This document shows, piece after piece, positions 40,117 to 60,629 of a DNA stretch of 64,000 nt; within the stretch, counting starts at the first letter, position 1; each line of letters begins with the position of its first letter. Below the pieces are notes generated by a model that saw only the letters and a list, made by a program, of their open reading frames with translations, was not told where the DNA came from and searched no databases. Made by a program: the position numbers and the translations under genes. Source of the stretch: a bacterium. GTDB taxonomy: Bacteria; JAGOBX01. The stretch lies in NCBI GenBank assembly GCA_029551925.1, contig JAKPEO010000109.1, positions 1-64,000 of the forward strand. The letters are read 5' to 3'.

Positions 40117-40301
40117 CAACAAAGATAATGAACAAAGATAATGAGAACGCTTCGTTTGTTAAAATATTAGATTTTTTGGAGCGTATCCAGTCCGCCGCTG
40201 AAAAATCACTTTTAAAAAAAATAAAAAATTATTGTTAATTTTTTAGAATAAAATATAATTAAAAATTTTAAGAAAAATTTTTCAAGCAAAATTTGATTTT
40301 A

Positions 40302-43300
40302 ATGAAGTTAATTAAGCGAATAATATTTTTTATTATAATTTGCTTTACAATAATTATACCGCTATTAATAACAGCATCAACGCAATTAAATTTTTCAGAT
40401 GAAAATTTAAAAAACGCAATTAAAAATAAGATAATTTTAATTAACAATGATATAGCTAAATTGTCAGAAAATCAAAAATTTGAGATAGCGAATAGATATT
40501 TAGAAAAATCCGAATTATTATATTATTTACTGCAATTAGAAAAATTCGAAAATACCGACGGATTAGAGCAGTTGAAAAATGAGTATATCTCATCATTAAA
40601 ATTGTCGCAGAAATTTTATGAAGAAAGCGAAAATAATTCGGGCGTATTTTTATGTAAAAGTAAAATTTTAAGATTTGAAATTGTCGGAATAGAAGAAATA
40701 AACGACATTGAAAAATTTAAAGTCGAAATTTCAAAAAAGATTAATCAGGATATTTTAGCAAAACCAATCGAACAAGTTGCGCAAGATATAAAGAACTCGG
40801 CAGCAGCGCAGCAGAATTCTGAAAACTCAGAAAAATCTGACACAATAATCGCAACAGTTGTTTCAGAAGATTTGCAAGCGTCAAATGATAGTCAAAAACC
40901 AGACACATTTTATTCGGAAGCGGTTGATACTTCTGTGAATATTACAGCTGACACAATACAGGAAGCCTTTAAACCTATTGCAAAATATGAAAAAATCGAA
41001 CCGAAATATATGATAAATGAACAGTCGCCTATTTCGCCTGTTTTGCGAAAAATATTGTTCACAGAAAAATTAGAAAAGGAATATGAAATCGAGCAGACAC
41101 GCGGATTATTGGGTTTTCGCGATAGAGAATTCGGTAAAACAAAATTAACAATCAGCGGTCAAAAGACAATAGATTTTATTTACAGCGGCAGAAAATACAA
41201 TAAGCGCAACGAGAGCATTAGCAATACGAGTGATTTTAAAATTGACCAATCATTAGAAGTAAAAGTGCGAGGTAAAGTCGGAGATAATGTCGAAGTAAAT
41301 ATAGATTACGATGATAAACGCACAGCTGCGAATCGCCAGCAATTAAGTATTGAATATAAAAGTGATGAATATGTTTTATCAAAAAGCAAAAACAAAAATA
41401 TTTTTTCTGCGACTGCAAGTTTCGGCGATATCGTTTTGTCATTGCCGTCAACTGAATTTGTATCATATCGCAGAAATTTATTCGGTATCAAAGGCGGTTT
41501 AAAATTGAGGAATGTAGAATATTCATTATTTAAAGCAGACCAATTTAATTTGGATTTAATTGTTTCTCGCACAAAAGGCGAGCCGGGCTATAAAGAATTT
41601 TATGGGTCAAGCGGCACGCGGATAATAACCCTGCGCGATATTGATTACACAAAAAATAAATATTTTAGAATTGTTACAGGGATAGGCAATGACACTGATA
41701 TACTTGCCGGCTCTTTAAAGGTTTATATTGACGATAATTTAGCGTATAACAATCAGGGCAATATTGACACGCGCGGAATAATTGTAACGCCTACTAATCC
41801 TAATTATACAGAATTAAGCAGTGAAACTTTTTCATTTACATTATTGCAAGAGATACGAGATTATGTTTATGATTTAAAAGAACAAATACTAACATTCAAT
41901 AGATACATAGACGACGGCTATACAATATCTGTAAGTTATCAAACAAAGAGCGGCTATTCAGTTAATTATAAAATTATAAGAAAAGATAAGCAGACGCAAT
42001 ATACTGACACATTTGCAATTTATGCGGTTAGAAATTATTACAATTTAGGTGTGACTAACATCAACAAAAATGACCCTGATTTGCTTATAAGAATACAAGA
42101 CACATACAATGGCAATATAAGCGATACGATGGTCGGCGCTGACACGCGGTCGTTTTTATATATATTCGGATTAGATAGGACAGGTCCGGGATTTGATGGG
42201 TTATTAGGAACAGTTGACGATGCGCCGGACGGTAAAATTGACGACGAATATATTGACTATGAAAACGGCATAATAAAATTTCCTGATAACCAGCCATTTA
42301 ATAATTCATTAGCGCAGACATTAGGATTAGCGCGTTCTGAAATTTATACGCGCGATAATCCAGCAAGCAGATACAGATTTTATGTTCAAGTCAAAGCGCA
42401 ATTGCAATATTATCCATTAGACGCATTTGACATTGTGCGAAATAGCGAGATTGTAAAAGTTAATGGCCGCACGCTTTCGCGTAATGTTGATTATTATATA
42501 GATTACGAAAGCGGTATGTTGATTTTTCTGGATCCGTCGTTAATCACTTCATCAAGTAAAATTACAGTCGAATATGAAAAAGTGCCGTTTGGCGCGTCAG
42601 CAAACAAAACGCTGTTTGGCACAAGATTTGAAGGGATATTAAATCAGAATTTTCGATTTGGCACAACGCTTATAAAGAATCAAAATGACAAACCAAATGA
42701 AATGCCGACAATTGACGCTACGCCGCAGGGCTCGTCAGTGCGCGAAGTAGATTTTGAAATTAAGCCGGTAAATTATTTATTTGATTTAATCAATAGTTCG
42801 TTTAATACTAAAATATCAGCGCCGTCAGCGCAGTGGTTTGATATAAAATTAATGACCGAAGTAGCGCGCAGCGAATTTGATCCTAATATTTACGGGTCTG
42901 CGATGATAGACGATATGGAATCGTCAAAAGATGCAATTGATATAAATTTGAGTTATAAATCGTGGAATAACACATATATTAGCGAATCGACTTTACCGCA
43001 GAGATTGCGCGGATTTATTGAATTTGAAGAAACAGATATAAACGAAAATATCGGGCATAAAACAGAATTGGATAAAGATGAAAGCAATCAAAAATCATTA
43101 AGATTAAAATATGATTTGGATAACGGCGCAGGAATAGATCCTGACACTTGGTTTGCCGCGCGGACATTAATATCAAAAGACGGCGTAGATATTTCTAAAA
43201 AAAAATATTTAGAATTGTGGATACATAATGCGGATAGTTTTTATTTAACAATCGATTTAGGGCAAATAAATGAAGATGTTGACGGAGATGGATTATTGGA

Positions 43301-46300
43301 TCAAGAAGACGGATTGTTTGTTGATGGTTCGCCTACAAGCCCGCAAACATTAGACGGCAAATTAAATAAGACGCCAAACGAAGATATAGGCATTATATAT
43401 AATACTTTTTATGATACAAAAACTATTGGAGCAGGCAATGGCAGATTAGATAGCGAAGATATGAACAGCAACGGCAGATTAGATCAACTTGAAGCATATT
43501 ACAGATACGCCAAAATCAATCTTGACAATTTTGCAGATGATACTGGCATCGGAAAAGTTATTAATGGCGTGCCTTATAGATTTTATAGAATAAATTTAGA
43601 TAAATTTACAGAAGCGATTAATACCCCGTCAAAAACTAATATAAAGCATATTCGATTATTATTTGTTCAAAAAGAAAATGTCAGTGCGCCGCCAAATGCA
43701 AATATACACATTGATTATATTTCAATAGTAGGCAGCGTCTGGGAAGATGCAAATATTACAGACACATATTTTATAGTAGGCACAAAAAATAATATAGACG
43801 ATAATTATGCAAGATTTGAAACAGAATTACAGATGCGAAAAATAGAAACAGTCGAAGGCGATAGAGCAGCGCGCGAACAAGCGTTATATTTGAATTATAC
43901 AAATTTAACAAATAACAATTACGACGCATCGAATTTTGAATATTATACAAAACGCGAGTATGCGAGAGCAATCAATATTTCAAAATATAAAAATTTTATT
44001 TTTTATGTCAAGACCGAAGATAATAATGATAATGGCGAGACGGTATTTATTAGATTAGGCGATAAAAATAATTTTTTTGAATATAAGTTTCGCGCACCTA
44101 TGCGCGAATACGGCTGGCGAAAAATTGAAATACCGTTAGACAGATTTCGTGCAATGATACAAGAAATTACAACTAACGATACTCGTGTGCCATTTGATAT
44201 AACTTTTGGCGAAAATAATGAATATCGTATCAGAGCGCAAAGCGTGCGTCCATCATTTTATAATATTAAAATGATACAAATTGGAGTAATAGGCGATTCG
44301 CTGAATCCAATAACAGGCGATTTGTTTATTAATACAATGTATGTTGACGGCGCTATGAAAGAAACAGGGATTGCACGTAAAACTCACTGGCAGACAAAAT
44401 TTTATAAAGATATATTCACTTTTAATATGCGCGAAGATTATAGAGAAAACACATTTCGCAGCATTGATGAAATTTCGTCATCAGTAAATCAAACATTTAT
44501 CCCGGAAAAAAGCGCGCAGAAAAAATACGATGGCACTATTGCATTCGGCAGATTATTACCTGAATCGTGGAAAATAACAATGCCGATGAGCGGGTCATAT
44601 ACAAAAAGTGAAATAGAAGTAGAGCCGGACGCTGCGCAAGAAGTAGAGCGCGCGAAAATAGGCAATACATTAACTACTAACAAAACATTTTCAACTTCAT
44701 TTTCTAAATCTAAGTTGCCGTTATTATCATTAAATTATTCGCAAAATGAGACTACAAAAGATTTGATTGAATCAAAATACAATATTTTAAATGAATCATT
44801 GAATTCGTCCGCGAGTTATTCAATAGATTTTCAAAAGACGATTTTTGGTGAAATGATTGGATTTAAGTATATACCGCTTTTAAATAAAATACCGGCTGGC
44901 AAAGAATTGAAAGTTAATTTGAACTATCAATACAATTATACTATCGATGATAAAAATTATATATTAGGCAGCGAGCAATCTGCTTTTGATAAATTTACAA
45001 CATACTACAAAAAAATCGGCGTGATTTCGCGCCCGTTTAATTGGATAAGATTGCAACCGGAATTGGCGTTAACTGACAAATATCATCGCACAAAATTGTA
45101 TGATGGTTTAGAAAATAAAATTCAGCAAGCATCGCTAAATGTCGATATCAACAAATTTTTAGGGTTGAAACCGTCATTTGATTTTGGCCGAACCGAAGAT
45201 TTAAGATATGATATTTCGCGGCCAGATTCAGAACCGACAGAAAATTATAATTATAATGCCGGAATAAGATTAGATGTGTATCCTGTTGACTGGTGGAAAT
45301 TGTTGAAATTTATAGACAGCAGATTTAATGTAAGCGGCAAATACACTGAAACTCTTAATGTTGACCAGATAATAAAAACAAAGGATTCTTCAATAAACGG
45401 TACATTTGGAGTAGATGTGTCATTAAGACCAAAAGAAATTTGGAAATATTTAGAATTCATAACAATGACATATTCATACAATAATAATGTTTCTGCTGTT
45501 TATAGTAAAATATCAAATAATTATGATTTTAATGATATTTTTAAAGATTATTTTGATAAATATTTCTGGCTCTGGAAAGATAAAGCATACACTCAATTAA
45601 GCGATACTATTGATTTACAATTCAATCGTACTTCTGCAAGTAATGCGCAGACGCATTCATTTAATGGTCAATTATTTTTATGGTCGCCATTAAATTTGCG
45701 TTATAATTATAATTTTAAAAATAGTTTTTCACAAGTTCAGGGATCAGAAAATTATAATAATACAAGGAATATTCAATTGAATTCAAGATTGGATTTAGTG
45801 AAGGGCTTGAAATGGTTTAAAAATACGCGGCGTTCAAGTTTAAATTTAGATTATTCATATTCTGAAGATGAAAACGGAAATTTTAAACAGTCAATTACAG
45901 AAGTATTAACGCACAACACCACATTGGGATTAGAAGTGGTGTGGACTGAAAAATTCAATACTTCATTTTCAATGAATTTTCCGCAGAGCAAAAAAAATAT
46001 GCAGACAGAATACGGCGTGAGTGTAGAAAAAAGTTTTAGTTATTCTCCGAAAATTTCGTGGAGTTATTATACTGCTAATCCTTTTAAGTTATTTAAACCG
46101 TTCACTAAAAAACAATGGCTTTTCCAAAATAAACTTAATCTTAACGGTTCTTTTTCTTATAGTTTACAAAAAGCGGAATTGTTAAGAACAGATAATATTT
46201 TACAAAAAACGCAAGATGCAATGCAATACGGCGCCACTTTCGGCGCGCAATATGATATGAGCGATTTTTTGAGATTAAGTGCAGATTCAAAATTTAATAT

Positions 46301-46376
46301 AAACAAAGACAATATAAACGAAAACAATGATTATACTGAATATTCTTTTAGCATAAAAACTATAATAATTTTCTAA
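40302..46376 (+). CDS. sprA: SprA/Sov-like giant outer-membrane protein
   Basis: About 2024 residues. A signal peptide (about 1-30) and a linker with coiled-coil and Ser/Asp-rich segments are followed by repeated beta domains with SprA features: FRDREFGKTKLTISGQKTIDF, VKVRGKVGDNVEVNIDYDDKRT, LARSEIYTRDNPASRYRFYVQ, GSAMIDDMESSKDAIDINLSYKSW and a long barrel-like C-terminus ending IKTIIIF with a terminal Phe. SprA/Sov of Bacteroidetes is the outer-membrane translocon of the type IX secretion system, usually near 2400 residues, so this is shorter. I prefer the ATG at 40302; a TTG nine bases earlier also opens the frame. No other T9SS gene is visible. Confidence 0.85.
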   Translation: MKLIKRIIFFIIICFTIIIPLLITASTQLNFSDENLKNAIKNKIILINNDIAKLSENQKFEIANRYLEKSELLYYLLQLEKFENTDGLEQLKNEYISSLKLSQKFYEESENNSGVFLCKSKILRFEIVGIEEINDIEKFKVEISKKINQDILAKPIEQVAQDIKNSAAAQQNSENSEKSDTIIATVVSEDLQASNDSQKPDTFYSEAVDTSVNITADTIQEAFKPIAKYEKIEPKYMINEQSPISPVLRKILFTEKLEKEYEIEQTRGLLGFRDREFGKTKLTISGQKTIDFIYSGRKYNKRNESISNTSDFKIDQSLEVKVRGKVGDNVEVNIDYDDKRTAANRQQLSIEYKSDEYVLSKSKNKNIFSATASFGDIVLSLPSTEFVSYRRNLFGIKGGLKLRNVEYSLFKADQFNLDLIVSRTKGEPGYKEFYGSSGTRIITLRDIDYTKNKYFRIVTGIGNDTDILAGSLKVYIDDNLAYNNQGNIDTRGIIVTPTNPNYTELSSETFSFTLLQEIRDYVYDLKEQILTFNRYIDDGYTISVSYQTKSGYSVNYKIIRKDKQTQYTDTFAIYAVRNYYNLGVTNINKNDPDLLIRIQDTYNGNISDTMVGADTRSFLYIFGLDRTGPGFDGLLGTVDDAPDGKIDDEYIDYENGIIKFPDNQPFNNSLAQTLGLARSEIYTRDNPASRYRFYVQVKAQLQYYPLDAFDIVRNSEIVKVNGRTLSRNVDYYIDYESGMLIFLDPSLITSSSKITVEYEKVPFGASANKTLFGTRFEGILNQNFRFGTTLIKNQNDKPNEMPTIDATPQGSSVREVDFEIKPVNYLFDLINSSFNTKISAPSAQWFDIKLMTEVARSEFDPNIYGSAMIDDMESSKDAIDINLSYKSWNNTYISESTLPQRLRGFIEFEETDINENIGHKTELDKDESNQKSLRLKYDLDNGAGIDPDTWFAARTLISKDGVDISKKKYLELWIHNADSFYLTIDLGQINEDVDGDGLLDQEDGLFVDGSPTSPQTLDGKLNKTPNEDIGIIYNTFYDTKTIGAGNGRLDSEDMNSNGRLDQLEAYYRYAKINLDNFADDTGIGKVINGVPYRFYRINLDKFTEAINTPSKTNIKHIRLLFVQKENVSAPPNANIHIDYISIVGSVWEDANITDTYFIVGTKNNIDDNYARFETELQMRKIETVEGDRAAREQALYLNYTNLTNNNYDASNFEYYTKREYARAINISKYKNFIFYVKTEDNNDNGETVFIRLGDKNNFFEYKFRAPMREYGWRKIEIPLDRFRAMIQEITTNDTRVPFDITFGENNEYRIRAQSVRPSFYNIKMIQIGVIGDSLNPITGDLFINTMYVDGAMKETGIARKTHWQTKFYKDIFTFNMREDYRENTFRSIDEISSSVNQTFIPEKSAQKKYDGTIAFGRLLPESWKITMPMSGSYTKSEIEVEPDAAQEVERAKIGNTLTTNKTFSTSFSKSKLPLLSLNYSQNETTKDLIESKYNILNESLNSSASYSIDFQKTIFGEMIGFKYIPLLNKIPAGKELKVNLNYQYNYTIDDKNYILGSEQSAFDKFTTYYKKIGVISRPFNWIRLQPELALTDKYHRTKLYDGLENKIQQASLNVDINKFLGLKPSFDFGRTEDLRYDISRPDSEPTENYNYNAGIRLDVYPVDWWKLLKFIDSRFNVSGKYTETLNVDQIIKTKDSSINGTFGVDVSLRPKEIWKYLEFITMTYSYNNNVSAVYSKISNNYDFNDIFKDYFDKYFWLWKDKAYTQLSDTIDLQFNRTSASNAQTHSFNGQLFLWSPLNLRYNYNFKNSFSQVQGSENYNNTRNIQLNSRLDLVKGLKWFKNTRRSSLNLDYSYSEDENGNFKQSITEVLTHNTTLGLEVVWTEKFNTSFSMNFPQSKKNMQTEYGVSVEKSFSYSPKISWSYYTANPFKLFKPFTKKQWLFQNKLNLNGSFSYSLQKAELLRTDNILQKTQDAMQYGATFGAQYDMSDFLRLSADSKFNINKDNINENNDYTEYSFSIKTIIIF

Positions 46377-46381
46377 AATAA

Positions 46382-48496
46382 ATGAACGAAAATAAAATTG
46401 AAACAAATAAAGAAGAAGCATATGAAGTAATACACTGCTTAGCGAATAATGGTTTCGAAGCGTATTTAGCTGGCGGCTGCGTGCGCGATGAATTATTGAA
46501 TAATGCGCCAAAAGATTATGATGTCGCCACAAATGCCAAACCTGCCGAAATAGAAAAAATATTTTCTAAAACTTTAAACTTTGCGAAAAAATACGGCGTG
46601 ATAATAGTATTTTTTTCAAAAACTAAAAAGACCGTGGAGGTCACGACATTCAGAAAAGATTTTGGCTATAAAGACGGCAGGCGACCTGATTATGTTGTGT
46701 TTGGCTCTTTGGAAGAGGATTATCAGCGCCGCGACTTTACAATCAATGCTTTATATAAAGATATTTTTAAAAATCAGATAATAGATTTTTGCGGCGGATT
46801 AGACGATATAAAAAATAAAATCGTGCGCTGCGTAGGCAATGCCGAAGAGCGTTTTAACGAAGATAAATTGCGGATTTTGCGCGCAGCGCGATTTGCCGGG
46901 AATCTCGGATTTACAATAGAGCCGCAAACTTACAGCGCAGCCCAAAAATTCATCGGGCAATTTCAATGTGTAAGTTTTGAACGGATAAACGAAGAATTGA
47001 CAAAAATGTTCACGCGTAAAAATGCTGATTTATGTTTGAAAATTTTAGATGAAATAGGAATATTAAAAATAATATTGCCGGAGATTGCGGATTGCAAAGG
47101 CATCAGCCAGCCGTTAGAATATCATCCGGAAGGCGATGTATTTGAGCATATTTTGAAAATGTTTGAATTTGCAAATTATCCGATCTCTAAAATATTAGCG
47201 TTTTCTATATTATTACACGATGTAGGTAAACCGCTGACTTATTCGCAGACAGATAGAATCAGGTTTAATGGCCACGATAGAAAAGGCGCGGAACTTGCTG
47301 AAAAAATTTTAAAGCGTTTGCGCTTTTCAAAAAAAGAAATTGCAATTATAAAAAATATAATAGCAAATCATATGAAATTTATTAATGTGCCAAAAATGAA
47401 AAGTAGCACAATACAGAAATTTGTATTATCAGAAAATTTTGATATTGAATTAGAACTGCATAGATTAGATTGTTTGGCGAGTCATCAAAAACTTGATACT
47501 TATAATTTTTTAGTTGAAAAACGCAAAGAATTTGAATACTTGAAAAAACTGCCGAAACCTCTGATTACAGGAAAAAATTTAATTGATAACGGATTAAAGC
47601 CCGGGCCTATATTCAAAAAAATTTTGAATGATGTTTATAATTGGCAATTAGAAAATAAAATAGAAGACAAACAGCGCGCACTTGATTATTTAAAAAACAT
47701 TATTTCAGAAAAATCTAAAAAAGATAATAATGAAAAGTTCCATAATTATTTGATTGATATTTTGCAAGTAAAAAAAGAAAGTATTAGCAAAATAAAAATT
47801 GAAAGTGTAAATCAAAAACAAGAAAAACGCAGTATATTGAAAATTTTTGAAAATAAACGAACGCCTGTGATTATCGCAGAAATAAAAAAAGCATCGCCAT
47901 CATTAGGAATAATTGCCGATGATTTTAATTTTGAAAATATTTTTGAAGTTTATAATACGCATAAAGCAGTTGACGCCGTATCTATTCTAACGGAAGAAAA
48001 ATTTTTTCATGGAAATATCGAATATATAAAACAAGCAAACAAAACAAGCGTCAAACCGCTATTACGCAAAGATTTTATAATTGACGAAAAACAAATATAC
48101 GAGACAGCGTCAAGCGGCGCTGATTTATTGCTGTTAATAGCAAGTATTTTAACAGAATATGAATATAAACATTTTTATGAATTAGGCAAATCATTAGGGC
48201 TGGAGATAATCACAGAAATTCATACGCTTGAAGAATTGAAGATGGTCGAAAAATATTCGCCTGAAATTATTGGGATAAATAACCGTAATTTAAAAACATT
48301 TAAAGTTGACTTGACAATAAGCGAAGAATTATTAAAATATTTGAAACGCCGTCAAATAGTTATTTCAGAAAGCGGTATAAAATCTGCTGATGATATAAAA
48401 AAATTGTTTCAATTAGGCGCGCGCGGTTTTTTAATTGGCGAACTAATTATGAAAAATAAAAACATTCATCAAATTTTGGATAATATTACACTTTAA
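46382..48496 (+). CDS. fusion: tRNA nucleotidyltransferase (Cca) + indole-3-glycerol-phosphate synthase (TrpC)
   Basis: 704 residues, two complete enzymes. Residues 1-445 are a class II CCA-adding or poly(A) polymerase: LAGGCVRDELL, DYDVAT metal motif, RRDFTINAL, EDKLRILRAARFA and an HD domain with ILLHDVGKP and NGHDRKGAELAE. Residues ~455-704 are TrpC with all catalytic motifs: AEIKKASPSLG, LTEEKFFHG, LRKDFIIDE, LLLIASIL, TEIHTLEE, GINNRNLKTF, ISESGI and GARGFLIGE. One frame, no stop or ribosome site at the joint. Cca repairs or adds 3' CCA; the tRNA-Gly at 54802 does not encode CCA and needs this. No other trp gene is present. Confidence 0.88.
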   Translation: MNENKIETNKEEAYEVIHCLANNGFEAYLAGGCVRDELLNNAPKDYDVATNAKPAEIEKIFSKTLNFAKKYGVIIVFFSKTKKTVEVTTFRKDFGYKDGRRPDYVVFGSLEEDYQRRDFTINALYKDIFKNQIIDFCGGLDDIKNKIVRCVGNAEERFNEDKLRILRAARFAGNLGFTIEPQTYSAAQKFIGQFQCVSFERINEELTKMFTRKNADLCLKILDEIGILKIILPEIADCKGISQPLEYHPEGDVFEHILKMFEFANYPISKILAFSILLHDVGKPLTYSQTDRIRFNGHDRKGAELAEKILKRLRFSKKEIAIIKNIIANHMKFINVPKMKSSTIQKFVLSENFDIELELHRLDCLASHQKLDTYNFLVEKRKEFEYLKKLPKPLITGKNLIDNGLKPGPIFKKILNDVYNWQLENKIEDKQRALDYLKNIISEKSKKDNNEKFHNYLIDILQVKKESISKIKIESVNQKQEKRSILKIFENKRTPVIIAEIKKASPSLGIIADDFNFENIFEVYNTHKAVDAVSILTEEKFFHGNIEYIKQANKTSVKPLLRKDFIIDEKQIYETASSGADLLLLIASILTEYEYKHFYELGKSLGLEIITEIHTLEELKMVEKYSPEIIGINNRNLKTFKVDLTISEELLKYLKRRQIVISESGIKSADDIKKLFQLGARGFLIGELIMKNKNIHQILDNITL

Positions 48497-54801: not shown

Positions 54802-54873
54802 GCGGGCGTAGTTCAGGGGTAGAACGTCAGCTTCCCAAGCTGAATGTCGTGGGTTCAATTCCCATCGCCCGCT
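54802..54873 (+). tRNA. tRNA-Gly (CCC anticodon)
   Basis: Cloverleaf of 72 nt: acceptor GCGGGCG/CGCCCGC, D-arm GTTCAGGGGTAGAAC, anticodon loop TTCCCAA (anticodon CCC), T-arm GTGGGTTCAATTCCCAT, discriminator T. The 3' CCA is not encoded (TCGAAG follows), unlike the Ser and Gln tRNAs. Confidence 0.92.
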
Positions 54874-54934
54874 CGAAGCGTCTGACAAATATTAGAGTTA
54901 TAGATTTAAAATTTTTTAAGGAGTAGTGGTAGTT

Positions 54935-55576
54935 ATGTTAACGAAATATAAATATGTATTTATGTTAGGGCGACCGGGCTGTGGAAAATCAGCGGTTTAT
55001 CGTAAATTAGAAAAAAGATTAAAGGAAGAAAATTTAGCGAGTTCATTTGAACGAGTTGATGATTTTCCAAAATTATGGAATAAATTTGTAACAGACGATA
55101 AATTACAAAAAGAAGGCAAGCCTCGTGTGTATTCCAGACCGACAGACGATGGCGGTTATAAAGTGACAAATGATGCTGTATGGAATGATATATTAAAAGA
55201 AGTGAACGCTGATATTTTAAAGATAAATAAAGGCGCTGGACATATAGTATTTATTGAATTTTCTCGTTCTAATTATATTGAAGCGCTTTCAAATTTTGAC
55301 AAAAAGATATTGGCTAATTGCTTGGCAATTTATATAGATGTATCTTTTGAAATATGCTGGCAGCGTAATGTAGCGCGTCATGAAGCTGCGCTCGCAGCAG
55401 GCGGTGACGATCATTTAGTATCGCGCGAAGAGATGGAGGCGACATATTTGTATGATGACAAAGAAAAATTGCTGAAAATCAAAGAATATCCGGTAGTAGT
55501 GATAAATAACGAAGCGCAGGGCGAAGAACATTTGGATACGCAAGTAGAAAAGGTTATTGAATTTTTAAAAAAATAA
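54935..55576 (+). CDS. P-loop kinase, adenylate-kinase-like
   Basis: 213 residues from the ATG at 54935, where AAGGAG is 11 nt upstream; an in-frame GTG at 54926 is too close to it. Walker A is GRPGCGKSAVYRKL (about residues 9-22). IVFIEFSRSNY resembles a Walker B strand, and WQRNVARHEAALAAGG a lid with arginines. The overall shape is that of nucleoside/nucleotide kinases or AAA_17-type NTPases; no substrate can be named. It lies between tRNA-Gly and the Clp1-like kinase gene with the unknown 143-residue gene between. Confidence 0.65.
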   Translation: MLTKYKYVFMLGRPGCGKSAVYRKLEKRLKEENLASSFERVDDFPKLWNKFVTDDKLQKEGKPRVYSRPTDDGGYKVTNDAVWNDILKEVNADILKINKGAGHIVFIEFSRSNYIEALSNFDKKILANCLAIYIDVSFEICWQRNVARHEAALAAGGDDHLVSREEMEATYLYDDKEKLLKIKEYPVVVINNEAQGEEHLDTQVEKVIEFLKK

Positions 55577-55605
55577 AATATAATAACAAATTAATAAAAA
55601 AGCTG

Positions 55606-55639
55606 TTTGCATATTTGCGCAATTGCGCAAATCCGCAAA
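55606..55639. repeat. 34-bp GCGC-rich palindrome
   Basis: ATTTGCGCAATTGCGCAAAT (55613-55632) is a perfect 20-bp palindrome; with the outer TTTGC and GCAAA arms it spans 34 bp with a 2-nt mismatch on each side. It is related to the palindrome at 1-26. It lies between two codirectional genes and has no T-tract. Confidence 0.6.
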
Positions 55640-55709
55640 TGTAATAAGTTAGTTATTAAAAAAGTAGATTTTGATTTTTAAATAATAAAAGAAAAAGGGA
55701 TTGTGTGTT

Positions 55710-56141
55710 ATGGCATTTAACGAATCAGATTATATTGAACTTATAAGAAAAATTGATGAAATACTGGAAAATGACGAATCTGGTAATTTAAAGAAATTAT
55801 TTTTTTTAAAAAAATTAATGGCTTTATATAAAAAATATCCTGTATATCCGTCGCTTGCAGTGAAGATATTCGAGCAATCGCAAGAAAAGACTATTGAATA
55901 TTCAGATATTGAAAAAGGCGATGTTTTGTTGTTTGATACTGATAAGGAGACCTATTTAGCGGCAGTAAAAGATGTAAACGCTGAAATAATAAAATTATCA
56001 GAAATTTCAAAAGAGACGGAATATCGGAGCAAAACATTTGAAAAATCGCAATTAAAGACAATTTATAGTTTAGTAGATAAACAATTAAATCCAGAAACGC
56101 GGAAAGAAAACGCAGAAGGCGGTGCATCTGATAATGCTTAA
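55710..56141 (+). CDS. conserved-looking small protein of unknown function
   Basis: 143 residues, not recognised. I use the ATG at 55710, with AAAAAGGGATTG upstream; three codons earlier there is a TTG. Helical N-terminal half (about 1-55, LIRKIDEILEND ... KLMALYKKYP) and a small beta-rich part (about 65-115, DIEKGDVLLFDTDKETYLAAVKDVNAEIIKLSE) resembling a small barrel domain. The tail is charged. No signal or membrane segment. It overlaps the Clp1-like gene by 8 nt (ATGCTTAA), indicating translational coupling, so it is probably a partner of that kinase. Confidence 0.55.
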   Translation: MAFNESDYIELIRKIDEILENDESGNLKKLFFLKKLMALYKKYPVYPSLAVKIFEQSQEKTIEYSDIEKGDVLLFDTDKETYLAAVKDVNAEIIKLSEISKETEYRSKTFEKSQLKTIYSLVDKQLNPETRKENAEGGASDNA

Positions 56142-57387
56142 AAATGTGTATGAAAATAAAACATTATTTTTTAAAGGGCCATATACAATAACTTTTAAAG
56201 AAGGCATATTTGAAATATTTGGCGCTCAACCTGACCGCGACGAAAAAATTGTTATTCCAGAAAATAAGCAAGTTCCTGTAATGGTATTGAAACAGGGCAA
56301 AATCGAAGTGGCGGAAAATTATCCGAAAGGCGTTACGGAAGTAAACGGTTATCCGATACCTGTAAGTTGGGATAAATTAGTTGAAAAAATTGTAAAAAAT
56401 AATTTGAATACGATATTAATTTTAGGCGCAACAGACAGCGGAAAATCAACATTAACGCATTATTTAGTGAATAGATTAGTAGCGCAAAACAAAAGCGTCG
56501 GAGTAGTAGATGCGGATTTAGGGCAATCTAATATAGGCGTGACAGGGACGCTTGGTCTTGCGATATTTGAAAATAAAATTTATAATATGCAAGATGCAAA
56601 GATTTTTAAATCTCATTTTGTCGGCGGATTTTCGCCGTCTTTGCATTGTATGGAAGTATTGATTGGCTTGAAAAAATTAGTTGCTACTGGTTTAATGAAT
56701 TCTAATGTTGTTTTGATTGATACTACTGGCTTAATAGATGGAGATAATGGCAGAGCATTGAAATTAGCGAAGATAGAATTATTGAATCCTGATTTAGTAG
56801 TGGCTATACAAAAAAAAGATGAATGCGAACATTTGTTAAAAAATTTGAATAATCAGCGGATTTTTAAAGTAGGTTTGTCTTATTATGTCCGCGAAAAAAC
56901 AACAGAAGAACGTAAATTGAATAGAAAAGCAGCTTTAGCGAAAGCATTGGCGAATAGCAAGAGTATGAAATTGTCAATAAATAAAATAAAACTTCGCGGA
57001 TGTTATTATACGACTGGCGAAAAATTGGAAATACCTGAAAATTTCAGCAATATAATTTTGCATTTAGAAAAATACAGCAAGCGCGAAGGAACATTAGTAG
57101 TATTGAAAAAACAGATAGATTCTAAAAAGAAAAAAGAATTAGCTGAAAAATTTGGGAAATTAAAAATATTCGTTGCTGGGCAAGAAGCGAATGTTTTAGT
57201 AGGATTATTAAATGAAAATAATGATTATATAGGCAGCGGTATTTTAGAAAAAATTGATTTTGCGCGAGAGAATATTTATTTGCAATCAAATGTAGATGCT
57301 TCTCAAATTAAAAGCATTGTTATTGGTTCAGTTCGTTGCGATTTAGAAGGAAATGAATACGGTTATTTTGAGCCTGGTATTTTCTAA
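56134..57387 (+). CDS. Clp1/Grc3-type polynucleotide 5'-hydroxyl-kinase
   Basis: 417 residues from the ATG at 56134. An N-terminal beta domain (about 1-75), a central P-loop domain with GATDSGKST at 98-106, the VDADLGQSNIGVTGTL (Walker B / clasp-like) segment and IDTTGLIDGDNGRALKLAKIELLNPDLVVAIQ, and a C-terminal beta domain ending VRCDLEGNEYGYFEPGIF. This three-part plan and the DADLGQSN motif define the Clp1/Grc3/Nol9 RNA kinases of eukaryotes and archaea, which phosphorylate 5'-OH RNA (or DNA) ends; they are scarce in bacteria. The G-x-x-D-x-G-K-S/T loop and the Asp of DxDxGQ are intact, so activity is likely. Confidence 0.82.
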   Translation: MLKNVYENKTLFFKGPYTITFKEGIFEIFGAQPDRDEKIVIPENKQVPVMVLKQGKIEVAENYPKGVTEVNGYPIPVSWDKLVEKIVKNNLNTILILGATDSGKSTLTHYLVNRLVAQNKSVGVVDADLGQSNIGVTGTLGLAIFENKIYNMQDAKIFKSHFVGGFSPSLHCMEVLIGLKKLVATGLMNSNVVLIDTTGLIDGDNGRALKLAKIELLNPDLVVAIQKKDECEHLLKNLNNQRIFKVGLSYYVREKTTEERKLNRKAALAKALANSKSMKLSINKIKLRGCYYTTGEKLEIPENFSNIILHLEKYSKREGTLVVLKKQIDSKKKKELAEKFGKLKIFVAGQEANVLVGLLNENNDYIGSGILEKIDFARENIYLQSNVDASQIKSIVIGSVRCDLEGNEYGYFEPGIF

Positions 57388-57494: not shown

Positions 57495-60400
57495 ATGAAG
57501 TTGTTTAAGAAAAAAGAAAATCTGTTAGCAATAGATATTGGCTCTTCATCAGTTAAAATGCTTGTAATGGAAGGTACTGCCAAGAAAGTAAAAACGACTT
57601 TTGAAAATTCTGTTTCATTTCGTATTGAGAAAAACGAAGAGCCGGAGCGAGAGAAAGAAATAATTGCTTCAGCAATAAAAGAATGCGTGGCGTCATTAAA
57701 TCTCAAAAAATATAATAAAATTATTTTTTCAATACCAGTTCAAAATGTAATTGCGAGAATAATAACAATTGCAGCAGTGCCTCTTGATAAACTCGACAGC
57801 ATAATTAGTTATGAAGCAGAGCAACATATACCATTTCCATTAAGCGAAGTAGCGTTCAAATATCAATTAATCAGTTATGACGATGAAAATATGGAAATCC
57901 TGCTGACAGCAGTAAAACAAGATAGATTAAATGATTTAATGGATATAGTGACGAGTGTTGGCTTTGAGCCGGAGCTTGTAGATGTCACTTGTTTTTCGCT
58001 TTTTAAATTATTATGTTTTCAAAAAGGTTTATTAGATGAAAAACTAAAAACATACACTCCTAAAAAGCGCGTTAGCGGACAAGCAGCTAATGAAAATGAA
58101 ATAATTGCAATGGTAGATATAGGCAGCGCTACGACAGATATAACGATAGGCAGCGGAAATTCATTTTATTTTACGCGCAGCGCTTTGATAGCCGGCGATC
58201 ATTTTACAGAAGCGATACAGAAAAAATTAAATGTAACTTTTGATATAGCGGAAAAAATAAAAAAAGAGAAATTTGAAATTGATTTAGACAGCATCGCTGC
58301 AGAGAAAACAGGGCAATCTCAACCAGTAAAAAATATATTTTCAACCAAACTTGGTAAGCCGTCTGCTGATACAACAGAAACGGGCGCAGGACAGTCATTA
58401 TTAAAATCTCCATCAGAAAAAACAGAAAGCGAAGCATCTGCGGTAAGTAAACCCGTTATACCATCAAAACCGCTAATTGCCGCGAAACCGTCAATTGTTA
58501 AACCGTCTATTCCCAAAATAGAATTATCTAAACCAAGTGTTAGCGCGGCGGCAGAAACCGAAGACTCAAAAGAAAATATCGAGGTTCAGGAAAAAAAAAT
58601 AGAACAGCAGGTAGCGTCACAGCCGGAAGCGGAACAACAGCAACCATCTGAAAAATTAGAATTACAGAAGCCGCCGGTAGATATAGCGCAACCGCAAATA
58701 GGTATAGGCAAACCACCAATTGGATTAGGCGGATTGAAGCCGGCTGCCGGTTTGAATATTCCGAAGCCGCCGGTTCAGCAGCCGAGCGTGGACAAACCGC
58801 AGGCCGGCATTGGTTTTCCGAAACCGCCGATTGGTTTGGCAAAACCGAGTATAAGCAGCGAAGAAACAAAAGACAGCAGCGTAAAAGAAAATGTCAAAGT
58901 TCAGGGAACAAAAATAGAACAGCCGGAAACTGACCAACAGCAATCAACTGAAAAATTAGAGCAGCCGAAAGCACCGGTAGATATAGCGAAACCGCAAATA
59001 GGTATAGGCAAACCGCCAATTGGATTAGGCGGATTGAAACCGGCTGCCGGTTTGAATGTTCCGAAGCCGCCGATTGCGCCGCAGAGTGCGGAAAAACCGC
59101 AGGTCGGCATTGGTTTTCCAAAACCGCCGATTGGTTTGACAAAGCCGAGTGTAAGCAGCGAAGAAACAAAAGGCAGCGGTGCTGTCGCAGAAGTAAAAGA
59201 ACAAACTATACAATCAAATCTTCCGCCAAAACCGCCGATAGGCGGATTGCCGAAACCTGATATAAGCGCAGCAGCAGAAAATAAATCATCTGATAATATT
59301 GAGCAGCCACCGGCTAAACCGCCGCAAAGCCCTGCGCCGGGTGGATTATTAAAAGGAATGTTAAAAAAACCGGAAATAAAGCCATTAGGCAAACCTGGTT
59401 TATTGAAACCGCCGAGTTTGTTAAAAGGGTCTGATAATTCTACCAATACTAATCAAAATACCGAAGGCGCTAATAAACCATTAAAATTGAATTTACCGCC
59501 AAAACCGCCGGGCAAATCATTAGGCGCAGCGGCATTAGATGCTATTTCAACAGAAAGCGAATTGGATGTAAATTCATTAGATGGCAAAGAAATTTTTGGT
59601 TATGTTAAGCCCACGCTTGATAAATTAGTGACTGAACTTAAACGATCATTTGATTTCTTCAAATCACAGATGAGCGGTATGCAAGTTAATAAAATTTTGT
59701 TGACTGGCGGTTCAGCGAAATTGAACGGACTTGACAAATATTTAGAAAAAAAATTGGGTCTGCAAGTAGAAATATTTAATCCGGTATTGAATATAGAAAC
59801 AAAAAATATTAATGAAACTTCAAATGAATATAGCGTCGCATTAGGTTTAGGAATGCATAATATTTTCCCGGTATTTCCGATAAATGTTAATTTATTACCA
59901 GAAGAAATTATTTATAAAAGAATACAAGCGAAGCAAAAGAAAAATGTTGTATTATTAGTAATATTTTTAGTATTAGCATTACTCGAATACAGCGTAAAAT
60001 TTTATTTTGAATTAAAGCAAAAAGAAGCAGAATTAAGATATTTAGAAGAAGAATATCGCGCGCAGCGCATACCGAGCGGCGAACCCGGCGTGAATTTTAG
60101 TTATGAACAAATAATAAACGAAGTCAACAAAGCAAAAGAAAAGAAAGCAAATTTTGAAAAAATAAAAGGGATAATTGAAAATATCCAAAATGAAAAAGCG
60201 CGGTGGCTTGATGTATTAGCGGAATTATCTGAATTATTGAATAATAAATTTGACGGAATATATACTGGCAACATTTGGATTGACAGAATAAATTTTCAAG
60301 AAAAGAAAAGTATCACCATAGTAGGTTATACAAAGACATATAATATGATTACGAATTTTATTAGGGCATTGAATAAATCTAAACATTTTTCAGTTCCTGA

Positions 60401-60629
60401 AAATGAACGACCGCAGCAGCAGGAAAAAGTTATAGACGGCGAAACATTCATAGAGTTTACTTTAAAAGCCGATGTCAAGCATTATATTGAAAGCGCAAAA
60501 ACGGAAGAAGAAAAAAACGAAGTGAAGAAAGAAGAATCTCCGAAACAACCAGCAGCAGCGGCGCAAGAAGAAAAAGAAACTAAAAAAACTGATAATAGCG
60601 AAGATGATTCTGAAGCCGAAGAAGAATAA
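57495..60629 (+). CDS. fusion: PilM (interrupted by a large Pro-rich insert) + PilN
   Basis: 1044 residues. PilM actin-like ATPase halves lie at about 1-270 (AIDIGSSSVKML, AMVDIGSATTDITI) and 698-790 (ILLTGGSAKLNGLDKYL), split by about 425 residues of Pro/Lys/Gln/Ser-rich low-complexity sequence. PilN follows: NVNLLPEEI near 792-800, a membrane helix at about 815-838, a periplasmic coiled-coil and ferredoxin-like part, and an acidic tail. PilM binds the cytoplasmic N-terminus of PilN in type IV pilus and type II secretion alignment complexes, so fusion of the two is functionally sensible. The gene begins a pilus operon. In most bacteria PilM is about 350 residues and PilN about 200. Confidence 0.85.
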   Translation: MKLFKKKENLLAIDIGSSSVKMLVMEGTAKKVKTTFENSVSFRIEKNEEPEREKEIIASAIKECVASLNLKKYNKIIFSIPVQNVIARIITIAAVPLDKLDSIISYEAEQHIPFPLSEVAFKYQLISYDDENMEILLTAVKQDRLNDLMDIVTSVGFEPELVDVTCFSLFKLLCFQKGLLDEKLKTYTPKKRVSGQAANENEIIAMVDIGSATTDITIGSGNSFYFTRSALIAGDHFTEAIQKKLNVTFDIAEKIKKEKFEIDLDSIAAEKTGQSQPVKNIFSTKLGKPSADTTETGAGQSLLKSPSEKTESEASAVSKPVIPSKPLIAAKPSIVKPSIPKIELSKPSVSAAAETEDSKENIEVQEKKIEQQVASQPEAEQQQPSEKLELQKPPVDIAQPQIGIGKPPIGLGGLKPAAGLNIPKPPVQQPSVDKPQAGIGFPKPPIGLAKPSISSEETKDSSVKENVKVQGTKIEQPETDQQQSTEKLEQPKAPVDIAKPQIGIGKPPIGLGGLKPAAGLNVPKPPIAPQSAEKPQVGIGFPKPPIGLTKPSVSSEETKGSGAVAEVKEQTIQSNLPPKPPIGGLPKPDISAAAENKSSDNIEQPPAKPPQSPAPGGLLKGMLKKPEIKPLGKPGLLKPPSLLKGSDNSTNTNQNTEGANKPLKLNLPPKPPGKSLGAAALDAISTESELDVNSLDGKEIFGYVKPTLDKLVTELKRSFDFFKSQMSGMQVNKILLTGGSAKLNGLDKYLEKKLGLQVEIFNPVLNIETKNINETSNEYSVALGLGMHNIFPVFPINVNLLPEEIIYKRIQAKQKKNVVLLVIFLVLALLEYSVKFYFELKQKEAELRYLEEEYRAQRIPSGEPGVNFSYEQIINEVNKAKEKKANFEKIKGIIENIQNEKARWLDVLAELSELLNNKFDGIYTGNIWIDRINFQEKKSITIVGYTKTYNMITNFIRALNKSKHFSVPENERPQQQEKVIDGETFIEFTLKADVKHYIESAKTEEEKNEVKKEESPKQPAAAAQEEKETKKTDNSEDDSEAEEE
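58621..59180. repeat. 300-bp tandem duplication inside the PilM insert
   Basis: The segment from 58621 to 58880 and that from 58921 to 59180 align with exactly 300-bp offset and high identity, coding for two versions of a 100-residue unit with DIA(Q/K)PQIGIGKPPIGLGG, LKPAAGLN(I/V)PKPP and GIGFPKPPIGL. Differences are mostly silent or conservative, which indicates an old but purified duplication. The GC-rich coding gives long but meaningless minus-strand frames. Confidence 0.85.

Follow-up and report, generated by a model that had tools for sequence, protein, structure and literature searches.

The Clp1/Grc3-type polynucleotide kinase encoded in the analysed window, by which we mean the whole stretch of 64,000 nucleotides, is part of a conserved gene set comprising a small partner protein (SP), in some lineages a second P-loop kinase (P1) and, in most lineages, a phosphoesterase of RecJ-like appearance (DHH). 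A survey of genomes, which the earlier note had named as the check on whether the three genes of the window form a unit, finds P1, SP and Clp1 conserved together across distant phyla. With some hesitation, since we put the chance at slightly below even, we regard the copy in the window as a divergent representative of this set and the set as a means of kinase-licensed nucleic-acid turnover, in which ends would be primed for degradation rather than for repair.

The three open reading frames of the locus (Table 1) are all intact and share one strand. While P1 and SP are separated by 133 bp, SP and Clp1 overlap, and direct reading shows that ATGCTTAA contains both the ATG of Clp1 and the TAA of SP. 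This overlap makes translational coupling of SP and Clp1 plausible, and the earlier reading of SP as the kinase's own partner, translated together with it, is supported. The gap between P1 and SP harbours the perfect palindrome TTTGCGCAATTGCGCAAA, possibly an operator or a dispersed repeat. One exact match and four matches with two to three mismatches add up to five palindromes of this type versus 0.32 expected by chance; such palindromic sequences are present at 1-26 and 55614-55639. The next gene 3' of Clp1 is, according to Pfam, a PilM/PilN-type pilus gene which looks unrelated to the set. The fused PilM/PilN-type protein encoded at 57495-60629 comprises 1044 amino acids; its Pfam FtsA match spans 205-784, and a long proline-rich repeat region lies inside the FtsA-like domain. 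We would also like to mention two further reading frames judged by eye, namely one of 704 amino acids at 46382-48496, which resembles a fusion of a CCA-adding-type tRNA nucleotidyltransferase with an indole-3-glycerol-phosphate synthase (TrpC)-like domain, and one of 2027 amino acids at 40293-46376, which looks like a very large SprA-like outer-membrane protein.

Table 1. Features of the P1-SP-Clp1 locus and its surroundings in the window.
Feature	Position	Strand	Description
tRNA-Gly(ccc)	54802-54874		precedes P1, SP and Clp1
P1, P-loop kinase	54935-55576	+	ORF, 213 aa from ATG 54935
Perfect 18-nt palindrome between P1 and SP	55614-55631	.	sequence search
SP, small partner protein	55710-56141	+	ORF, 143 aa from ATG 55710, TAA 56139-56141
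Overlap of SP stop and Clp1 start, 8 nt	56134-56141	+	read directly from the sequence
Long Clp1/Grc3-type polynucleotide kinase	56134-57387	+	ORF, 417 aa from ATG 56134

The family identity proposed in the earlier note for the kinase is borne out by a match to Pfam CLP1_P (PF16575) at 2.8e-33 and 115.8 bits (cut-off 26.6), the sole CLP1_P match in the 2.96-Mb assembly. The protein consists of an N-terminal domain, the CLP1_P kinase domain and a C-terminal domain, and the profile of the long-Clp1 family can be aligned with both the N-terminal and the kinase domain of human Clp1 (E 2.4e-20). The same note had called such kinases rare in bacteria, which is correct insofar as they are uncommon; exceptional they are not, as 49 of 336 sampled genomes contain some match at E <= 0.001 and 15 of them the long form. 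Nor is a bacterial Clp1 kinase itself new, since Clp1 of Thermus scotoductus (Ts-Clp1) phosphorylates 5'-OH single-stranded RNA in vitro (PMC6777427, Saito et al. 2019). With Ts-Clp1 the window protein shares its bacterial origin and a CLP1_P domain with Walker A and Walker B motifs. In contrast to that short protein of about 27 kDa, which is a kinase domain alone, it possesses 417 residues, N- and C-terminal domains and conserved partner genes.

For SP, no family is found above cut-off; a profile which includes the SP sequence of the window matches within the window's genome at 1.8e-30. The AlphaFold2 model of an SP homologue from Riflebacteria (pLDDT 87) features N-terminal helices followed by a barrel, and the Foldseek matches listed for it are Sm/LSm proteins or stem from complexes holding them, with E-values near 1e-3. 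On this one model of a relative, SP is predicted to combine a helical domain with an Sm/LSm-like barrel. P1 likewise matches no named family above cut-off, AAA_33 coming closest to it with 26.5 bits, just below the cut-off of 27. Its AlphaFold2 model (mean pLDDT 93) retrieves adenylate, APS, PSTK and other small-molecule kinases in Foldseek at TM about 0.5, adenylate kinase with E 9e-7, and no close solved relative. These matches agree with the earlier description of P1 as an adenylate-kinase-like P-loop protein, and its predicted fold is that of a P-loop kinase of the adenylate/NMP-kinase type. A second, distant P1-like protein of about 244 aa, belonging to a widespread family, is encoded in the window's genome (G000:C20:80721-81275); for one member of this family, L094, Pfam gives no match at E 0.001.

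The arrangement of SP and Clp1 is not due to chance. Among 336 genomes sampled across the domain, 15 harbour a long Clp1, mostly incomplete MAGs. SP occurs in 14 genomes, all among these 15, while DHH occurs in 13, 12 of which carry a long Clp1 (12/15), and close relatives of P1 in nine, eight of them with a long Clp1. As the sampled genomes are related, the corresponding Fisher p-values are a guide rather than exact: 7e-24 for SP, 2e-18 for DHH and 2e-11 for P1 over the 336 genomes and, collapsed to families, 2e-15 for SP/Clp1 and below 1e-8 for the pairs with Clp1. The thresholds for strong matches were set after the score gaps had been seen; these gaps are wide, DHH scoring either 1e-133 or better or giving no match at 1e-20. 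Whole-length (417-aa) relatives of Clp1 occur in distant bacteria, and the first two examined had an SP relative just upstream. In the contig scan of named genomes an alignment query found long Clp1 where the single window Clp1 as query found nothing. The loci belong to Riflebacteria/Ozemobacter, Elusimicrobia/Endomicrobia, Lindowbacteria, Hydrogenedentota, Mcinerneyibacteriota, UBP18 and unclassified MAGs. Once near-duplicates are removed, 38 non-redundant loci leave room for an SP gene, and 36 of them have it immediately upstream of long Clp1; DHH is located upstream in 23 of 36 such named-genome loci, in 19 of them no more than 300 nt from SP. The order DHH-SP-Clp1, with short overlaps or gaps, is seen in Riflebacteria, Hydrogenedentota, Mcinerneyibacteriota and others. 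The order P1-SP-Clp1 of the window is found in a Lindowbacteria contig (L016) of genome G061 and recurs, with P1 homologues adjoining SP-Clp1, in UBP18 and close relatives (L101-L105, L137), in Lindowbacteria (L129) and in a Spirochaetes MAG (L144). Four other loci have a 4-nt overlap between P1 and DHH, which ties P1 to DHH as well. Archaeal loci with a long Clp1 lack the partners SP, DHH and P1, except in one MAG titled Candidatus Hadarchaeum (L138), whose bacterial-type DHH-SP-Clp1 possibly stems from a misbinned contig or from transfer. No long Clp1 was found in viral contigs and no SP in phage records; plasmids yielded one distant P1 match. Models of defence systems gave weak matches only, and this line was rejected.

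Several traits distinguish the copy in the window from its relatives. Its Clp1 reads TTGL in place of the clasp motif [T/S/L]xGW, the tryptophan of which, important for RNA binding, is found in 40 of 40 long relatives. Given this exchange to leucine, the substrate of the window copy may have been lost or changed, and we file the protein by its sequence as a member of the CLP1_P family, not as a proven RNA-specific Clp1. Besides, Gln-Ser-Asp following Walker B has turned into Gln-Ser-Asn, the C-terminal WPxLVF tail of SP relatives is lost in the aligned SP of the window, no DHH was found in the window's genome, and the terminal branch leading to the window Clp1 measures 1.41 in a quick tree which groups the SP-associated bacterial Clp1 proteins and places the window sequence loosely. 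A kinase in decay, or a repurposed one which may no longer act on RNA ends, could account for all of this. Yet none of the three reading frames is broken, and the kinase retains Walker A (GATDSGKS), Walker B (DADLGQ) and the two lid arginines kept in 39 of 40 relatives, at the spacing RxxxR versus RxxxxR in the lid motif. Moreover, the clasp motif is not universal, other Clp1-family proteins commonly carrying Leu, Phe or Met there, and P1 is about 60% (up to 60%) identical to its homologues from UBP18 and Spirochaetes, which argues for maintenance of the unit. We thus deem decay or repurposing very improbable.

The DHH component, outside the window the most frequent companion of SP-Clp1, is a RecJ-like DHH/DHHA1 phosphoesterase and keeps the motifs HDDPDG, DHH and GGGH. 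As in archaeal RecJ (MjaRecJ1, MjaRecJ2 and relatives), the architecture is DHH/DHHA1, and the DHH profile matches the structures of these enzymes. Unlike them, DHH scores far under the NCBIfam equivalog cut-offs of archaeal RecJ, is encoded together with SP and Clp1 and was not found in the window's genome (86% complete), nor in the long-Clp1 genomes G061 and G210. In four long-Clp1 genomes (G019, G030, G060 and G062) DHH resides on another contig than Clp1, so that the link between the two is not one of neighbourhood only. As the window's genome encodes RecJ, the unit of the window may use another nuclease such as this one. The same genome contains on contig C36 (L184:1036-2433) a reading frame of 465 aa which reads as a fusion of RbfA with an NrnA-type DHH phosphoesterase and is followed by a TruB-like gene.

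It is the linked DHH nuclease, along with frequent neighbours from nucleoside salvage, that leads us to favour turnover. The analysis shows the gene set and its co-occurrence, an operon-like layout, the identities of the domains and predicted folds; we infer every activity, the 5'-to-3' polarity, that the substrate is RNA and not DNA, and that the proteins form a complex at all, as follows. The Sm-like SP would bind single-stranded RNA (or DNA) and hold the kinase, the long Clp1 would phosphorylate 5'-OH ends left by endonucleases, and the 5'-phosphate would license the DHH exonuclease to degrade 5'-to-3'. In genomes lacking DHH, that of the window among them, RecJ or another nuclease would take over this degradation. 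Released nucleotides would feed the salvage enzymes often encoded alongside, and a nucleotide or nucleoside so released, or some other RNA-derived compound, may be what P1 phosphorylates. RecJ2 of M. jannaschii acts as a 5' exonuclease on 5'-phosphorylated, not clearly on 5'-OH substrates (PMC5615345). This enzyme, one of the closest solved relatives of DHH, degrades mainly 3'-to-5' (PMC5615345), for which reason the licensing logic may not hold. Precedents for kinase-licensed decay are Trl1, whose kinase enables Xrn1 (PMC6456296), and Grc3 in the eukaryotic Las1-Grc3/Nol9-Rat1 pre-rRNA machinery. There, a kinase of the same Clp1/Grc3 family provides the 5'-phosphate which enables 5'-to-3' degradation by Rat1 (PMC5702609). 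In contrast to that machinery, the nuclease of the set would be a RecJ-like DHH instead of Rat1/Xrn and the partner is Sm-like; a HEPN Las1 relative was not noticed among the recurrent neighbours on inspection. A narrower version of our reading, namely that the Sm-like protein acts as an adaptor between a Clp1/Grc3-type 5'-OH kinase and a RecJ-like exonuclease and that bacteria lacking RNase J thereby achieve kinase-licensed RNA decay, as an analogue of Grc3-Rat1, seems possible but rather doubtful to us. RNase J has no match above cut-off in the 15 long-Clp1 genomes, as judged by one profile at a strict cut-off in mostly incomplete MAGs.

Kinase and RecJ-like nuclease might instead act on single-stranded DNA, for instance on imported DNA broken down as food. 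RecJ enzymes prefer single-stranded DNA, and in L111, L115 and related Riflebacteria loci genes which read from their sequence as ComEA/ComEC-like, together with a metallo-beta-lactamase gene, are located directly upstream of DHH-SP-Clp1. Such Com neighbours are, however, confined to one lineage, and the predicted Sm-like fold of SP is typical of RNA binding. Thermus Clp1 does phosphorylate single-stranded DNA at high enzyme levels but clearly prefers RNA (PMC6777427), and in sum we consider DNA processing unlikely.

The neighbourhood of the set allows for a further reading. MTA phosphorylase, adenosine deaminase, purine and pyrimidine phosphorylase, cytidine deaminase and RecJ recur next to it, and the fold predicted for P1 resembles that of NMP kinases, so that small nucleosides or nucleotides could be the substrates of the Clp1-like protein and of P1, and the set as a whole could serve purine/pyrimidine salvage. 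This appears improbable, given that the salvage families are present in at most 9-10 of the 41 loci, that an Sm-like protein and a RecJ-like nuclease, and not salvage enzymes, are the partners most tightly linked, and that polynucleotide ends are what the characterised enzymes of the Clp1 family act on.

The earlier note had seen in the locus a 5'-OH end-healing pathway for tRNA or other RNA, in which the kinase would heal the 5'-OH ends of cleaved molecules for a ligase to rejoin them. Eukaryotic Clp1 indeed has a role in tRNA splicing and in end healing. Repair of this kind requires a ligase which joins 5'-phosphate ends, while RtcB seals 5'-OH ends, so that a 5'-kinase would work against it. 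RtcB is present in 12 of the 15 long-Clp1 genomes. The search for an associated ligase, carried out with the single family RNA_ligase (PF09414), gave no match in 14 of these genomes, that of the window (G000) included, and a sub-threshold one in the last; moreover, neither a ligase nor an enzyme that heals 3' ends is a recurrent neighbour of the unit. The position just after tRNA-Gly, to which the earlier note had drawn attention, is real, but tRNA adjacency is not conserved in relatives and the neighbour is a local accident. Since no RNA_ligase match exceeds the cut-off, the tRNA link is not conserved and the neighbours are nucleases and nucleoside-salvage enzymes, RNA repair is a weak reading which we hold to be quite improbable, even though a bacterial Clp1 phosphorylates RNA 5' ends in vitro (PMC6777427).

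Multi-gene RNA repair units with a 5'-OH RNA-end kinase are exemplified by Clostridium thermocellum Pnkp/Hen1 and T4 Pnkp-Rnl. Their kinases, which belong to other P-loop families, are accompanied by ligase modules and by phosphatase or methyltransferase modules, whereas the Clp1 set shows none of these. In the open-access literature searched, subscription papers being outside its scope, we found no description of the multi-gene set and no relevant paper on bacterial Clp1 combined with DHH or RecJ.

Several little-studied bacterial phyla thus have in common a gene set in which a relative of Clp1/Nol9, the RNA-end kinases of humans, is encoded nearly always beside SP and often near a RecJ-like nuclease. 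The fixed, putatively Sm-like partner and the linked RecJ-like nuclease provide a concrete and testable context for the cellular role of bacterial Clp1-type RNA kinases. If the decay reading is true, a route of RNA decay in bacteria would involve an Sm-like adaptor that is not Hfq, and bacteria and eukaryotes would have in common the strategy of priming 5'-OH ends for degradation.
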